A stretch of DNA of 64,000 bases from Thioclava atlantica. GTDB lineage: Bacteria; Pseudomonadota; Alphaproteobacteria; Rhodobacterales; Rhodobacteraceae. Below, piece by piece: positions 3,205 through 8,319 of the stretch; the stretch's first letter is position 1, and the number at the start of each line of letters is the position of its first letter. The translations under genes were made by a program, and so were the position numbers. The DNA lies in assembly GCF_000737065.1 (NCBI RefSeq), contig NZ_AQRC01000004.1:1-64000 (forward strand). The letters are read 5' to 3'. The notes beneath the pieces were generated by a model, which made no database searches, had not been told where the DNA came from, and saw only the letters and a program-made list of their open reading frames with translations.

Positions 3205-3900
3205 TCAGATCAACCCCGCGCGAATAGCCGCTGCAACCGCTGCAGTCTTGTTTGTCGCTTCGAGCTTTTGACATGCATTTCTGAGATAGCCGTTAATACT
3301 CTGTTCTTTCAGGCCCAATATTGCCCCGGTCTCCCAAGATGTCTTCCCCGAAGCAGCCCAGAAAAGCACTTCGCGCTCACGCTTTGACAGTCCCACGAAA
3401 CGACCTGTGCGTGCATAGCTTGGAAATACATCATTGTGGAATTCGAGTGCCAAGCTACGCGCCCGGTTCGCCAAAGCCTCCATTGCCTTGACACCAGGAG
3501 AGCTCCGCTCGCCCGTGGTAAGGCTCAGCATGCTCCAATGTCGCGGCCCGCTTCGGATCGGCACGGAGAAGCCGATGGAAGTTATCCCATGCGCATTAGA
3601 GAGCTGGAAGAAGCGCCGCGCAGAGACACTCTTCTCAAGAAGTTCGTTCCAAGAAAACAAACGGCCATGGCAAAAATTTTCCTGGAGGACCGGGTCCAGT
3701 GCGCCTACCCCTTCAAGAAGGTAAGCGTCGCGCCATTCGTTTGAATAGTTCGACAACACGGCAGCGCCGTCAGAGAATTGACCGCCCGAAATCGAGCGTG
3801 CGTAAGCGAATTGGCAAAACCCATGAGCCTCCGCGAAGCGGTTCAGGTCAGATTTTGCATAAAAGATTTCGACGGGGAAATTTTGTTCTCTAGACGACAT
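3205..3900 (-). CDS. LuxR-family quorum-sensing regulator (solo)
   Basis: A 231-aa transcription factor with an N-terminal autoinducer-binding domain (about 20-160) and a C-terminal GerE HTH (about 168-231: LSKREREVLFWAASGKTSWETG). The residues that contact acyl-homoserine lactones in TraR/LuxR are all present one position off TraR numbering: W56, Y60, D69, P70, W84. The HTH carries the conserved E, L and G. So it should bind an AHL-like signal. No luxI synthase is in the window, hence a solo. The ATG has a pyrimidine-rich stretch directly upstream and no Shine-Dalgarno I can see. It lies in the accessory region; its targets are unknown. Confidence 0.85.
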   Translation of the reverse strand: MSSREQNFPVEIFYAKSDLNRFAEAHGFCQFAYARSISGGQFSDGAAVLSNYSNEWRDAYLLEGVGALDPVLQENFCHGRLFSWNELLEKSVSARRFFQLSNAHGITSIGFSVPIRSGPRHWSMLSLTTGERSSPGVKAMEALANRARSLALEFHNDVFPSYARTGRFVGLSKREREVLFWAASGKTSWETGAILGLKEQSINGYLRNACQKLEATNKTAAVAAAIRAGLI

Positions 3901-4072: not shown

Positions 4073-4249
4073 TCACTCCTCACTCGCAGCCAACCACTGA
4101 GCGAGGGCACGCCTGATCATTTCCGGTCGGGTCGGCAGATCGCTCTCGAGCCTCCGGCGTTCGTCGATCGCCTGCAGCATCTCGCGACTGAGACGAAGGT
4201 TCACCGCCTCTGTATCTACCCGCGGCCGGCCTTTCTTCTTCTCTTCCAT
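4073..4249 (-). CDS. Ribbon-helix-helix (CopG/Arc-like) regulator, 58 aa
   Basis: A small protein starting MEEKKKGRPRVDTEAVNLRL and ending LAQWLAASEE. VNLRLSREML gives the beta strand and first helix turn, and TRPEMIRRALAQWL gives the second helix: the layout of a ribbon-helix-helix DNA-binding dimer. The ATG at 4249 has AAAGGA nine bases upstream. Its start is only 19 bases from a sigma70-like promoter that fires the other way into the cargo operon at 4373, so it is well placed to repress that promoter and perhaps its own. An overlapping 64-aa frame (4080-4274) is a shadow. The fold is inferred from sequence pattern. Confidence 0.75.
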   Translation of the reverse strand: MEEKKKGRPRVDTEAVNLRLSREMLQAIDERRRLESDLPTRPEMIRRALAQWLAASEE

Positions 4250-4267
4250 GACACCGAATCCTTTTAG

Positions 4268-4298
4268 TTGACACTTTGGTTTTTTGGTGCCATATTAT
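4268..4298 (+). promoter_or_regulatory. Sigma70-like promoter for the cargo operon
   Basis: A perfect TTGACA at 4268-4273, then 17 bases to CATATT (4291) or 19 bases to TATTAT (4293-4298). The T-rich spacer stands out from the GC-rich surroundings. It faces the 4373 gene and abuts the divergent RHH gene. Confidence 0.65.
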
Positions 4299-4372
4299 GC
4301 GAGCGAAGGCAAGGGATTAGGGCCCCTCGCCAACGCTCTCACCACAGCCAATCTCGTCACAGGAGACCGACC

Positions 4373-4873
4373 ATGGCTAATTTCGTCACTACCACGCGCA
4401 CAGCCGCGAATGAAGACGCGTCCACCTACATTCCCTCCCCGATCTCGACGCTCTTCGAGCGCTTGTTGCTCGCGCTCGCCGAGGTGATCGAGTGCAATCG
4501 CGATCTCGCCGATATCGATATCTGGGACATTGCCTGCAGCGGCTGGCTCAAGGCGACGGAACTCGCCGAGGAGCGCCTCGGTGCCTTGGTCCATGATCTC
4601 CTGAACGCGGATGTCGTGCGCCCCGCCGACCGGCCGCTCAGGCTCGCGGCTTTCATGCTGCATCTGACGATGGACGCGGCCGGTCCCAAAGAGGTTGCGC
4701 GCTTCGCCGCGATCGCCCGCCTCAAGGCGGAGGACTTCCTGCTGACCGACGAGACCGCAACCCATCGCCATGTCAACGCGATGACCCGCTCGGCGCTCGC
4801 GCTCTTCGAGGGGTTCGTCGCGCTCGACCTCTGCGGTCACGATCCTTGCGCGGATCTCGCCGCCAGCATCTGA
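4373..4873 (+). CDS. Helical protein of unknown function, first cargo gene
   Basis: A 166-aa protein, predicted mostly alpha-helical (FERLLLALAEVIECNRDLADIDIWDIACSGWLKATEL; RPLRLAAFMLHLTMDAAG), acidic, without signal peptide or membrane segment. I do not recognise the family. The start at 4373 is chosen because AGGAGA sits seven bases upstream; the frame is open further upstream but lacks a ribosome-binding site. It is the first gene after the promoter at 4268 and is followed in the same direction by the GIY-YIG and AAA-protease genes, so it probably belongs to one transcription unit with them. It may be a partner or adaptor of the protease, but that is only context. Confidence 0.65.
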   Translation: MANFVTTTRTAANEDASTYIPSPISTLFERLLLALAEVIECNRDLADIDIWDIACSGWLKATELAEERLGALVHDLLNADVVRPADRPLRLAAFMLHLTMDAAGPKEVARFAAIARLKAEDFLLTDETATHRHVNAMTRSALALFEGFVALDLCGHDPCADLAASI

Positions 4874-4910
4874 CCCTCCTCCCCTTCCCGATACCCTGTT
4901 CGCCTGCCCT

Positions 4911-5027
4911 GCCGGGCCGCCGGCCCGGCTGAACGGGGACGCGCTTGCGGGCGGCGCCGCCTGTGGTGGCGCCCGCACCTTCCTCCCGGCGCACGCTTCC
5001 GCGCGCCCTCCCCCTCTCCCCCCATAC
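4911..5027 (+). promoter_or_regulatory. Structured leader: hairpins then C-rich G-free tract
   Basis: The gap before the GIY-YIG gene holds a GCCGGGCC / GGCCCGGC hairpin (4911-4929) and a second bulged stem (4947-4976, arms GCGGGCG / CGCCCGC). A 22-base stretch without G (5006-5027, C and T rich, ending CCCCATA) follows. The same order occurs before the protease gene at 6084-6148. C-rich, G-poor RNA is what Rho prefers, so attenuation is possible. Confidence 0.4.
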
Positions 5028-5049
5028 GTCTGCACAAGGAGGTCTGGCC

Positions 5050-6051
5050 ATGTCCCAGCCCATCCCGAACACCCTGCCCATTGGCGGGACGCCCCAGCCC
5101 ATCCATCCCGGCGCGCTTCATGCGCATTGGAAGAAGATGGCGCGCAAGAAAGGCTTCGAGCTCATCGCCCGCGTCACGGACCGCTACCACCTGGCACTCC
5201 GGTGCAAGTGCTGCGGCGAGCTCTCCTCGACGAAGCTCTTCGTCCTGATGAACGCCCGCCCCCTCTGCCCCCATTGCCTCGCGCGGCGCAGGCAGAGCCG
5301 GGCGAGGCGCGCGCATCTGCGCTTCCTGCGCCGCGATCCGTCGGACACCCGATACGGAGTCTACAAGGCACCTTGCGGCCATGAGCTCCGCCGGCAGTTC
5401 GGCTTTGTCGAACGGATCGCGCGCGGCGAGGTGAGCCACCGCTGCGAGACCTGCCAGCACGCGCGTGAGCAGGAGGAGGCGATCGCCCGCGGCTGGCAGC
5501 TGATCGGCCCCGACCCCGAAGGCAATCACAACTACCGGCTCTACCGGCATAAAGAGGGCTGTGGCATCGTCACGCGCATCGCGCGGGTGAACATGAAGAC
5601 CGGTCGGTTCGACTGCCCCCAATGTGGTGAATGCTGGTCGGCGGAGCCGAGCGCCATCTACCTGATGCGCATCACGCTTGCGCCGGACAAGCATGTCGTG
5701 AAGCTCGGCTTCTCGCGCGATCCCGAGAGCCGCCTGCTCCACCAGCTCCATCGGGTTCCGGATCTGCCGCGGCAATTGATCAAATCCGTCCCGATCCGGT
5801 CGGGGCGTCAGGCGCAGCGGCTCGAGAAGAAGCTCCACGCCTGGCTCGCGACCCGTTTTCCCGAGGGGCGCGTTCCGCCCGAGGAGTTCGCGCACCTGCT
5901 CAAGGTGAAGTCGGAGATCTACCGGCCCGAGCTCGAGCAACCGATCTCGCAAAAGCTCGACCGGCTGATGCGCAAGGAGCGCCGTGCGGCCTCGCGCAGC
6001 CGCACCAAGCACCGCGCCCGCCAGGTGCGCCTCCGCAAGGTGCGGCGCTGA
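5050..6051 (+). CDS. GIY-YIG-type (T5orf172/MUG113-like) nuclease with zinc-ribbon repeats
   Basis: A 334-aa protein. The N-terminal half has three cysteine units that look like zinc ribbons: C52-C55 with C73-x2-C76; C109-G-H with C132-x2-C135; C161-G with C179-x2-C182. Units 2 and 3 are clear repeats (CG...i..v..G...C..C). The C-terminal half (about 192-290) has IYLMRI, VKLGFSRDPESRL and a Glu-containing RLEKKLHAWL, the pattern of the T5orf172/MUG113 branch of the GIY-YIG superfamily. It is probably a DNA endonuclease guided by its ribbons. The very basic tail (RRAASRSRTKHRARQ) fits nucleic-acid binding. The start at 5050 has AAGGAGG eight bases upstream. It lies between the helical protein and the AAA protease, same strand. 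Confidence 0.7.
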   Translation: MSQPIPNTLPIGGTPQPIHPGALHAHWKKMARKKGFELIARVTDRYHLALRCKCCGELSSTKLFVLMNARPLCPHCLARRRQSRARRAHLRFLRRDPSDTRYGVYKAPCGHELRRQFGFVERIARGEVSHRCETCQHAREQEEAIARGWQLIGPDPEGNHNYRLYRHKEGCGIVTRIARVNMKTGRFDCPQCGECWSAEPSAIYLMRITLAPDKHVVKLGFSRDPESRLLHQLHRVPDLPRQLIKSVPIRSGRQAQRLEKKLHAWLATRFPEGRVPPEEFAHLLKVKSEIYRPELEQPISQKLDRLMRKERRAASRSRTKHRARQVRLRKVRR

Positions 6052-6083
6052 CCGCGGGCGTCCACGACACAGCCCCTCTCCCT

Positions 6084-6148
6084 GGTGGCCCCCATCCCGG
6101 GGCCACCGCCTCCTCCCTTTCCTTCCCTCTTTCTCCCCTCCCCCATAA
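6084..6148 (+). promoter_or_regulatory. Structured leader before the protease gene: hairpin then 40-base G-free tract
   Basis: Perfect nine-base-pair stem GGTGGCCCC / GGGGCCACC (6084-6092 and 6099-6107), then forty bases with no G (6109-6148), nearly all C and T, ending CCCCATAA. A GAGG-type ribosome-binding site and the ATG at 6163 follow. The layout matches the leader at 4911-5027. Rho-dependent attenuation is a possible reading. Confidence 0.4.
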
Positions 6149-6162
6149 GACGAGGTTCCGCC

Positions 6163-8319
6163 ATGACCCAATTCGACCTGTCCCCGAGCTGGGGCCCGCT
6201 CGCGCTCGAAGCCGTCTTTCGCCTGCGCGACGAGATGAGCGACAAGCGCCCCGCACCGACCTCATCCGCGTCACGCCGCGCACCCGGCAGCAGCAACGGC
6301 GGAGACGATGGATATGACCTCGAGTTCGACGGGGGCCATCTGCACCTCTCTGGTCCCGAGGCCCAGCCCCAAGAGCCGGGCGCGAAAGCGCTTCCCGGCT
6401 CGATCATCACGCCGCATCTGCTCCTCCTGACCTTGCGGCTCGCCGCAACCTTCGGAACCGCAGAGCGCATCGAGGCGCTCACGCGCCCCGGAGCGGTCAC
6501 GCTCCTTCAGGGTGCTAGCCGCGAGGATATGAGCGAGATCGCGGATCGTATTGCTGCGCTCTTCCTGCCGCCATCGGCCACCCCGCCTCGCGACAAGCTG
6601 CAACGCGACATCGACGCGCTCGCACGGCTCTCGATCCTGCTCCCGAGCCGGACCAAGACGCAGCCGCCCGAAAGGGAGATCCGCGAGGGGCTCGAGACCC
6701 ACCGCGCGACCCTCATCCTGCTTCCCGACGACATCCGTCTGCCGCGTGCGCTTCTCACACTCCTGCCCGTTCCCCTCACCCTCGCGCCGGTCGACCGGGA
6801 GATCACGCTTGCCCAGCTCGCAATGACCTATTCCGAGGGGATCGATCTGGAGGCCCTGCGCCGCGCGCTTCCCGAGAACGCCGCCCTCGCCTCGGTCCCG
6901 CAAGCTGCCCGAGCCCTCGCGCTGCGCGCACCGAGTGCGCTTGAAGCGGCCAATCAACTCGCCAAGGCGGCGCGACCCCGCGTGATCACCGCAGGCCCCG
7001 ACCTCGATCAGATCGCCGGTGACACCGAGGCGCTGCGCATCGCGAAGCGCATGGTGCGCGATCTGGCCGACTGGAAGGCGCGCAAGATCGACTGGTCGGA
7101 GGCAACGCGCTCGGCGCTCTTCTTCGGTCCTCCCGGCTCCGGCAAGACCTGGCTCGCGCGCGCGATGGGCGCAAGCGCCGGGGTCACCTTCATCTCGGCG
7201 GGCTTCGGGGAATGGCAAGCAGCAGGACATCTGGGCGACATGCTCGGCGCGATGCGCCGCTCCTTCGCCGAAGCCCGGGCCGCGGCCCCCGCGATCCTCT
7301 TCATCGATGAGACCGATGCGGCGGGCTCGCGCTTCGGCGGCGACCAGCACGGCAAGACGTATCAGCGCCAGGTCATCAACGCCTTTCTGCAGGAGATCGA
7401 TGCGCTCATGCTATCCGAAGGCGTGCTTCTGGTCGGCGCGACGAACGATCCCGGCGCGATCGATCCCGCCATTCTCCGCCCCGGGCGTTTCGACACCCAT
7501 GTCGAGGTCCCCCTGCCCGATGCGACCGCGCTCGAGGGGATGTTGCGGGCGCAATGCGATTGGCCGGAGGAGACGCTGCGTGCCCTCGCGCGCGCCGCCG
7601 TCGGCCAGTCCGCTGCCGAGCTCGATGCCGCAATCCGCGCCGCGCGCTCGGAGGCCCGCGACGAGGGGCGCCCTCTCGTCGTCGAAGATCTCGCACGACA
7701 GCTCACGACCCTGCAGGTAACCGACCCGTCCCATGACTGGCGCGTGGCCCTGCACGAATGCGGCCATGCCATCGCCTATGCCGCCCTGGGGCTCAGCGCG
7801 ACCAGCCGTCTCGTGCTCACCCGCAATGGCGGCGGCGAGGCCCATGGCGCCCCCACCCGCGCCCTCAGCAGCCTTTCCGATCTCGAAGACGACATGACCT
7901 GCCTGCTGGCAGGTCGCGCGGCCGAGAGCCTCGTGCTCGGCGAAGCCTCGGCCGGGGCCGGCGGGACGCAGGACTCCGATCTCGCGCGCGCCACCCGGCA
8001 TGCGGTCGGGATCGAGACCCGCTATGGTCTCGGCCATCACCAGCTGGTCTGGCTCGACGCGCCCGATCATGTCGCCCTGCACAACCCCCACGTTTACGGC
8101 CGGGTGCGGGCCCGGATCGCCAAGGCCGAGACCCGCGCCCGCGCCCTTCTCCACGCACGCCAAGCCACGCTCGAGGCGATGGCGCAGGCGCTGCTCGAGA
8201 GGCGCGAGCTGAAGGGCGAGGAGTTGGCGCGGTGGTTGGCACCGCTGTGCTCGCCGCAGCCCTCGTCCCCCTCGCCCGAGGCGCCCCGCGACGGGCTGTG
8301 CCCGCGCGAAGACATGTAA
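6163..8319 (+). CDS. Soluble FtsH-like AAA+ ATPase with M41 metalloprotease domain
   Basis: A 718-aa protein. Residues 1-300 are an uncharacterised, partly disordered N-domain with no membrane segment. The AAA module follows: Walker A GPPGSGKT (322-329), Walker B ILFIDE (378-383), and a second-region-of-homology stretch DPAILRPGRFD. The C-terminal M41-type peptidase has HECGH at 531-535 (FtsH usually HEAGH) and a downstream Asp in GGTQDSDLARAT matching the third zinc ligand of FtsH. All catalytic elements appear intact, so it should unfold and cut proteins in the cytoplasm rather than at the membrane. The start at 6163 is chosen for initiator context after a GAGG site; the open frame upstream is leader. 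It is the last of three cargo genes on the mobilizable element. Confidence 0.85.
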   Translation: MTQFDLSPSWGPLALEAVFRLRDEMSDKRPAPTSSASRRAPGSSNGGDDGYDLEFDGGHLHLSGPEAQPQEPGAKALPGSIITPHLLLLTLRLAATFGTAERIEALTRPGAVTLLQGASREDMSEIADRIAALFLPPSATPPRDKLQRDIDALARLSILLPSRTKTQPPEREIREGLETHRATLILLPDDIRLPRALLTLLPVPLTLAPVDREITLAQLAMTYSEGIDLEALRRALPENAALASVPQAARALALRAPSALEAANQLAKAARPRVITAGPDLDQIAGDTEALRIAKRMVRDLADWKARKIDWSEATRSALFFGPPGSGKTWLARAMGASAGVTFISAGFGEWQAAGHLGDMLGAMRRSFAEARAAAPAILFIDETDAAGSRFGGDQHGKTYQRQVINAFLQEIDALMLSEGVLLVGATNDPGAIDPAILRPGRFDTHVEVPLPDATALEGMLRAQCDWPEETLRALARAAVGQSAAELDAAIRAARSEARDEGRPLVVEDLARQLTTLQVTDPSHDWRVALHECGHAIAYAALGLSATSRLVLTRNGGGEAHGAPTRALSSLSDLEDDMTCLLAGRAAESLVLGEASAGAGGTQDSDLARATRHAVGIETRYGLGHHQLVWLDAPDHVALHNPHVYGRVRARIAKAETRARALLHARQATLEAMAQALLERRELKGEELARWLAPLCSPQPSSPSPEAPRDGLCPREDM

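Follow-up and report, generated by a model that had tools for sequence, protein, structure and literature searches.

A mobile gene cassette of Thioclava atlantica with a structured RNA leader, a helical protein, a GIY-YIG nuclease-like protein and a soluble FtsH-type protease

The DNA analysed here (the window) is a stretch of 64,000 nucleotides (nt) from Thioclava atlantica (GCF_000737065.1, NZ_AQRC01000004.1, positions 1 to 64,000), the start of contig C4 in a 3.9-Mb genome. At 4073-8319 it carries a cassette of one divergent gene and three forward-strand genes. The divergent gene (4073-4249, reverse strand) encodes P0001, a CopG-type ribbon-helix-helix (RHH) regulator of 58 amino acids (aa) that matched PF01402 with an E value of 2.3e-6. 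The promoter/operator region (4250-4298, forward strand) contains TTGACA (4268-4273) and TATTAT (4293-4298), overlaps GGTTTTTTGGTGCCATA, and has a long spacer of 19 nt between the two hexamers. P0002 (4373-4873, 166 aa), P0003 (5050-6051, 333 aa) and P0004 (6163-8319, 718 aa) follow, with a gap of 176 nt between P0002 and P0003. The gene calls and coordinates of the original prediction, which had been made from the letters alone, were correct on re-check, and a Shine-Dalgarno (SD)-like sequence was visible before each forward gene, as expected from its claim of separate ribosome sites. Its promoter was also present, but the distance from the RHH start to TTGACA was 18 nt, not the 19 nt given. 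The structured RNA leader found between the promoter and P0002 is an addition to it.

P0002 had no match in Pfam, NCBIfam or PADLOC; the PHROG families gave a single one, at E 0.38. The AlphaFold2 model, built with 28 sequences, was all-helical (pLDDT 88.4), in line with the earlier description as a helical protein, and had no fold match at E<=0.001 in the PDB or BFVD. The identity of 27 relatives to the window copy was 16-32%.

P0003 contained three Cys/His modules (aa 52-192, nt 5203-5625) followed by a GIY-YIG domain (aa 204-291, nt 5659-5922). Twelve Cys/His positions in three groups were invariant in 29 sequences, and the groups were read as three zinc ribbons, a motif reading with no model match behind it. 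In the GIY-YIG domain, Y204, K218, G220, R228, E259, H263 and Y291 were invariant in the same number of sequences; the Tyr, Arg and Glu residues of this framework presumably have the catalytic roles known for the superfamily. P0003 matched phrog_681 "endonuclease" at E 2.2e-9, MUG113 at E 1e-3 (20.1 bits, slightly under the Pfam cut-off of 22.3) and T5orf172 at 15.3 bits (cut-off 20). By its catalytic framework P0003 is assigned to the GIY-YIG nuclease superfamily and is predicted to have nuclease activity. The zinc-ribbon GIY-YIG call made at the outset was supported by the invariant residues and the phrog_681 match.

P0004 matched the Pfam families AAA (E 5.6e-28; aa 319-451, nt 7117-7515) and Peptidase_M41 (E 7.4e-12; aa 524-689, nt 7732-8229), both above the cut-off. 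K328, D382, E383, R439, R442, H531, E532, H535 and D606 were identical in 36 of 36 protease rows (alignment A3), and all nine were kept in 24 of 25 rows of alignment A7, L159 differing at H535 and D606. The segment of about 280-690 was modelled as the cytosolic core of FtsH (pLDDT 80.8) and matched the Thermotoga maritima FtsH structure 2ce7_B (E 1e-21; TM score 0.82 by target and 0.49 by query). The maximal 19-aa hydropathy was 1.35, compared with 2.35 in the FtsH control, and reached at least 1.8 in 4 of 51 protease rows, one of them the control. P0004 thus lacks a membrane segment, and the "membrane-free FtsH-like protease" of the original prediction was confirmed. Ordinary FtsH was ruled out by the score against the NCBIfam FtsH equivalog TIGR01241 (165.9 bits, cut-off 600), the pore-loop region and the missing membrane segment. 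No family matched the N-terminal part of about 290 aa; aa 84-270 were modelled as alpha/beta, and a degenerate AAA domain can only be guessed at. The identity of 35 relatives to the window copy was 27-51%.

Loci were collected from plasmids, 295 genomes of the family and GTDB species genomes, the last with P0003 as bait, and were annotated with hidden Markov models. Open reading frames (ORFs) were longest-frame calls, some of them over-extended. The loci are not independent, because the searches overlap and some loci are near-identical (L160 and L161, 98% over 8.6 kb). Among the 70 P0003 loci with at least 2 kb downstream and at least 1.5 kb upstream, a protease gene lay downstream in 60, P0002 upstream in 58 and a divergent RHH gene in 45. 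The scan with P0003 as the only bait returned 50 loci, of which 45 had a P0003 frame longer than 233 aa; L171-L174 and L176 were left out because this frame was short or missing. Here P0002 lay upstream in 44/45 and the RHH gene in 22/45, and the protease followed in 38 of the 41 loci with at least 800 nt downstream (39 counting L163, with an over-extended ORF). Several genomes held two or three cassettes.

The gene order recurred at dozens of diverged loci, which is more than chance would give, and it is old rather than recently copied, because P0003, P0002 and P0004 have strongly diverged between loci. Comparison of the loci shows joint inheritance of the leader, P0002, a nuclease and a soluble AAA+/M41 protease; a divergent RHH gene is often part of this unit. 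The three genes do have homologues that are neighbours elsewhere, and the proposal of a single operon on mobile DNA, with an RHH gene dedicated to it, agrees with this co-inheritance. That the genes are unrelated passengers is extremely improbable: each gene type does occur alone elsewhere, but order and partners were kept although the 28 aligned P0003 relatives were just 28-51% identical to the window copy, and the neighbour counts ruled passengers out.

P0003 was found in 19 and P0002 in 16 of the 295 family genomes, and P0003 in 10 of 16 genomes of the genus. Among 385 class-wide genomes P0003 occurred in one, the window's own, and in none of four other genomes of the same family among those listed; a broad alphaproteobacterial spread was thereby ruled out, and P0003 appears nearly confined to one family. 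L171, a 4.3-kb contig of a metagenome-assembled genome labelled Rhodospirillales, carried part of a P0003 relative (51% identical over aa 161-306), which speaks against strict confinement but could be mis-binned. Only two phage records matched P0003, over 36% of its length, and one IMG/VR contig held P0002 and P0003; with these counts, phages were ruled out as the principal habitat.

Relatives of P0004 in Azospirillum, Methylorubrum, Rhizobium and Bosea, beside which no P0002 or P0003 was detected, were set aside as a wider family. The same was seen for the AAA+/M41 genes of L042-L045 and L047, from Azospirillum, Hyphomicrobiales and Falsirhodobacter plasmids; a metallophosphoesterase gene was present in L043-L045 and a DUF6634 gene in L043, L045 and L047. 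In L049 (4882-5487) and L088 (4880-5485), a gene of about 200 aa annotated as a site-specific integrase lay directly upstream of the soluble protease, in the place of the nuclease and P0002.

In seven related cassettes (L041, L046, L048, L055, L057, L059 and L072), the slot between P0002 and P0004 was occupied by a PD-(D/E)XK-like protein of about 190-220 aa. These seven proteins were homologous to one another (pairwise identity 38-93%). L041 matched PDDEXK_5 above the cut-off (30.2 bits against 26.1), and L048, L072 and L046 matched below it (E 4.8e-5, 0.011 and 0.28, respectively); L055 and L057 were unmatched, L059 not being among the scanned proteins. The slot of L064 held a protein of 453-512 aa with weak similarity to CoiA nuclease (E 0.11). 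In a tree built from 79 proteases, parsimony implied four changes of the PD label, and the starred branches implied at least two; the tree was made by a quick method, some long branches were flagged, and L159 and L163 carried the label "other" in spite of their P0003. The nuclease type changes while the rest of the cassette stays. Many conflict systems are built in this manner, with effectors that can be swapped on a core that stays constant.

Promoter segments and RHH strand residues were compared at 49 loci with both a leader and an RHH gene. The promoter similarity score was 14.5 for 179 pairs with the same strand residues and 2.7 for 997 pairs with different ones. For pairs with P0002 identity below 40% or missing (pairs without a P0002 sequence were entered as <40%), the scores were 13.6 and 2.6. 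No permutation of 2000 reached the observed score, in the full and restricted sets alike. The strand TLRL occurred mostly with TGATGTTGACATCAT-like segments, NLRL (the window's own) with GGTTTTTTGGTGCCATA-like segments and TIRM with TTGACT...TGACGTCAT-like segments, with exceptions for each. By this measure the regulator and the promoter sequence change together, and binding of the RHH protein at the promoter/operator is inferred. Because the gene and its operator adjoin, shared inheritance may account for part of the match; the idea of a dedicated RHH repressor is thus favoured by the promoter classes, with this reservation.

The intergenic regions shared a leader of constant layout, with hairpin SL1 directly past the -10 box, a CTAACCACAA box, a weak hairpin at the SD and a further hairpin in the first codons. 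In the window, SL1 (4301-4338, forward strand) lies at or near the mRNA 5' end. The box follows at 4339-4348 and reads TCACCACAGC in the window, the consensus CTAACCACAA starting at column 38 (alignments A8 and A9). The SD region with the weak hairpin SL2 (76% paired) occupies 4350-4372, with AGGAG at 4361-4365, and SL3 comprises about the first 14 codons of P0002, where constraint is at the nucleotide level. The covariance model matched the window at 4301-4378 (61.2 bits), overlapping the P0002 start codon.

No structure came out of RNAalifold when it was applied to the MAFFT alignment A8; in our view this is because hairpin length and internal-loop register vary, and arm-swap and register tests were therefore used. 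In 68 leaders, SL1 folded at -16.5 kcal/mol with its own arms and at -11.2 with swapped arms (permutation p<=5e-5), and in the register test 73% of cells were paired, compared with 54% (standard deviation 1.1) after shuffling. This set was without L039, for which an incorrect start had been chosen, and also without L041, L048 and L056, which did not match the regular expression for the box; the leaders of L038 and L072 were missed by the pattern and found by the covariance model. SL2 was weaker than SL1 (-6.1 against -5.6, p 0.004). SL3 was negative in a first version with 16 sequences (p 0.35) and positive in 68 sequences with other segment limits (-8.3 against -7.0, p<=5e-5). In 31 aligned leaders, the outer helix was 94% paired, and the whole structure had 39 cells with both sides changed against 10.4, and none of 500 shuffles reached its covariation score; of the five measures, the two coarser counts stayed within the shuffled range (both-side-change pairs 122/500, further pair types 244/500). 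Single-sequence folding gave a mean z of -1.7, with 32 of 71 leaders below -2 and several near zero or positive. No Rfam family matched at its gathering score (best RF00043, 21.6 against 55 bits, E 2), and a known RNA family was ruled out by these scores. The leader is a structured, covarying and apparently undescribed mRNA element.

In codon 6 of P0002, the third base was nearly fixed as T (1.81 bits) and bases 1 and 2 were free (0.14 and 0.22), and the constraint therefore acts on nucleotides. The leader box CTAACCAC (4339-4348, before the SD) resembles the motif CTANCACG in codons 6-9, past the start codon, as if a single factor bound on either side of the start. In L150 (4453-5022, reverse strand), the protease was directly followed, on the opposite strand, by another match to the leader together with a gene weakly resembling P0002.

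The covariance model found 39 places in 25 of the 295 genomes, 32 of them at whole or partial cassettes, of which some are truncated by the end of a contig. The other seven were L199-L205, with L204 counted by its match only. At L199 (4218-4289, E 4.5e-6), portal and capsid/protease genes followed the leader; at L205 (3315-3386), head protease/capsid genes followed and an RHH gene adjoined; at L200 (4229-4302, E 7e-5), an integrase gene was nearby and an RHH gene adjoined. An RHH gene also adjoined the match of L202. The match of L201 (3848-3920) lay before a small gene with what we read as a TAT-like signal. L201-L205 are the weakest matches, because their E values were 0.001 (L201) and 0.003-0.008 (L202-L205).

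These places bear on the explanation that the leader and the RHH operator are a phage-type control of late genes, and the cassette a phage- or satellite-derived weapon fired at prophage induction. The head genes and the integrase of L199, L200 and L205 and the RHH genes beside the leader in L200, L202 and L205 agree with it; the two partial phage records and the single IMG/VR contig do not, nor does the composition of the neighbourhood, as no phage head family was among the best 25 of 104 Pfam families in 130 cassette neighbours. This explanation is considered quite improbable.

Neighbouring genes were sampled at 28 loci (201 called ORFs, 136 aligned, 130 scanned), and recombinases (five) and relaxases (four) were the commonest Pfam families among the 130 proteins. 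A large serine recombinase of about 566 aa lay downstream in 25 of 76 cassette loci (median distance 591 nt, never upstream), and in 15 of the 58 loci with at least 2.5 kb downstream. A Mob_Pre-like protein lay upstream in a cluster of 11 loci, of which one member was scanned; a relaxase cluster comprised five loci, the window included, and relaxases were also near L040 and L041. An SRAP (HMCES/YedK-type) gene was upstream of the cassette in L142, L155, L158 and L162 (5154-5861), with the Pfam scan made for L162. Downstream of the window cassette, an AlpA/MerR-like gene, a NikA-like match below the cut-off and a relaxase above it were found by Pfam; the original placement on a mobilizable element is therefore reasonable.

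The cassette might accordingly be a module for element transfer or DNA processing, in which the protease would strip the relaxase, the recombinase or other bound proteins and the nuclease would trim or resolve intermediates, so that the carrier moves better. The downstream recombinases, the Mob_Pre and relaxase clusters, the relaxases near L040 and L041 and the four SRAP-type genes would suit such a module. It is nevertheless judged unlikely: 51 of 76 loci lacked such a recombinase within the DNA inspected, which was short at some loci, the type of mobility gene varied, and the finding of unrelated nucleases in the slot is easier to reconcile with an interchangeable effector than with a defined step of DNA processing.

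A LuxR-type gene with an autoinducer-binding domain (3205-3900, reverse strand) adjoins the RHH gene of the window, upstream of the cassette, and LuxR-related genes were near three cassettes in one Sulfitobacter strain (L134, L138 and L144). Since pieces of an IS3-like transposase, read from the ORFs alone, sit at the contig start (1-1000), the left edge of the island is out of view. In the same genome, P0003 and most of a protease lay at the end of contig C5 (L070), and the remainder of a protease at the start of contig C7 (L084). They are probably a second, diverged cassette copy, and the two pieces were kept apart.

Taken together, the sequence comparisons favour, without proving, the reading that the cassette is a mobile, repressed nuclease system with an exchangeable effector, gated by proteolysis and serving conflict between mobile elements or with phages. 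It is the best supported of the readings, and we hold it at somewhat under even chances. Under this reading, the RHH protein would keep the promoter nearly off and the leader would restrict translation. P0002 would be an adaptor or inhibitor bound to the nuclease; its N-terminus, which is disordered and conserved, could well serve the protease pore as a place of entry, and the RNA would explain the same conservation too. Once the cell is disturbed by a phage or a rival element, the AAA+/M41 protein would unfold and degrade either P0002 or some foreign protein; the nuclease, which its zinc ribbons would keep on the DNA, would then cut the DNA of the invader or of the cell. The constant part would form the sensing and gating core, and the nuclease the interchangeable effector.

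Several observations weigh against the conflict system. Ten of the 70 P0003 loci (L177-L181, L169, L051, L052, L040 and L086) had no protease, and the nuclease can therefore do without it; 25 of the 70 had no divergent RHH gene. In L077, a relative without a cassette, the Walker-A Lys was replaced by Arg. PADLOC gave no clear defence-island signal for the 130 neighbours, for which there was no background set for comparison: 82 models matched at 1e-10, and the best 25 of the 82 matched one protein each (mad3 two) and were mainly methyltransferase models. The original prediction likened the build to defence, anti-defence or element-maintenance systems, which stays a hypothesis here: recombinases and relaxases were the commonest neighbours, and matches to defence models were few. 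Because phage head genes, too, are preceded by the leader, it does not prove that the cassette serves defence. The order of events, that is, which protein cuts or degrades what, is our own inference.

The loci without a protease also touch on the proposal that the cassette is an addiction module, with the nuclease as toxin, P0002 as antitoxin and the protease as the degrading enzyme through which cells that lose the element would die. No partner of the nuclease is more constant than P0002 (44/45), which stays in P0003 loci that lack the protease, such as L040, L086, L179 and L181, and is small, fast-diverging and helical. Yet the likely repressor is a separate divergent gene and not the antitoxin, P0002 and P0003 are 176 nt apart, and a dedicated AAA+ protease is, to our knowledge, not usual in such modules. 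An addiction module is likewise unlikely.

If the conflict system is real, AAA+ zinc proteolysis would be coupled in it to exchangeable nucleases, a combination that we know from no described defence or plasmid-conflict system, and mobile elements may have in the cassette a weapon or safeguard that is so far undescribed. A broader and more tentative proposal, which we consider possible and would put at roughly one chance in three, is that the cassette represents a new class of systems for immunity or competition of mobile elements: whichever nuclease fills the slot would be gated by a helical adaptor together with a soluble protease of the FtsH type, under the control of a co-changing repressor and operator and a new leader. 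One RNA-level signal could then govern both cassette firing and prophage activity, because the same gene pool uses the leader before prophage head genes. The leader, with no Rfam match, overlapping the start codon and common to cassettes and prophage head genes, makes the coordination of translation by the mobile elements of this family directly testable, and the dozens of cassette loci, many in named strains, are ready test objects.

The original prediction knew of no described system with this set of genes. A literature search, with most subscription papers outside its reach, likewise found no description of the gene set or the leader, and we know of no described system that combines an RHH protein, P0002, a nuclease and this protease. 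Compared with FtsH, P0004 shares the AAA+ and M41 core, the HExGH motif, the Asp ligand and the fold; it differs in its pore-loop region (WQxxGHLG, in some members of the family CQxxGHxGD, where the FtsH row L083 has FVEMFVG), in the missing membrane segment, in an N-terminal domain without a family and in its nuclease partner. P0003 shares the order of catalytic motifs and the invariant residues with GIY-YIG nucleases of the T5orf172/MUG113 type, but has three zinc-ribbon-like modules in front and P0002 nearly always adjoining (44/45). PDDEXK_5 endonucleases resemble the alternative nuclease in the same slot of related cassettes, the window's own slot being filled by P0003.

PADLOC 2023 gave no match for P0001-P0003 of the window, and its matches to P0004 covered the AAA part, not the full length. 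One of them was IetA (E 8e-23), of the anti-phage system IetAS, which pairs an AAA ATPase with a subtilisin-like protease; the pairing of AAA with a protease is common to both. IetS is a separate S8 (subtilisin-type) protease. The protease of P0004 is a fused M41 domain, there is no separate S8 gene among the window cassette genes, and a nuclease is present; the score of P0004 against the NCBIfam IteA model was 75.8 bits (cut-off 510). A passage of PMC10924106 concerns ietA. With RHH-type type II toxin-antitoxin systems, the cassette shares a small operon, an RHH protein and a possible pair of nuclease and partner; it differs from them in that its RHH gene is divergent and separate and in that it has an extra protease and a conserved leader RNA.

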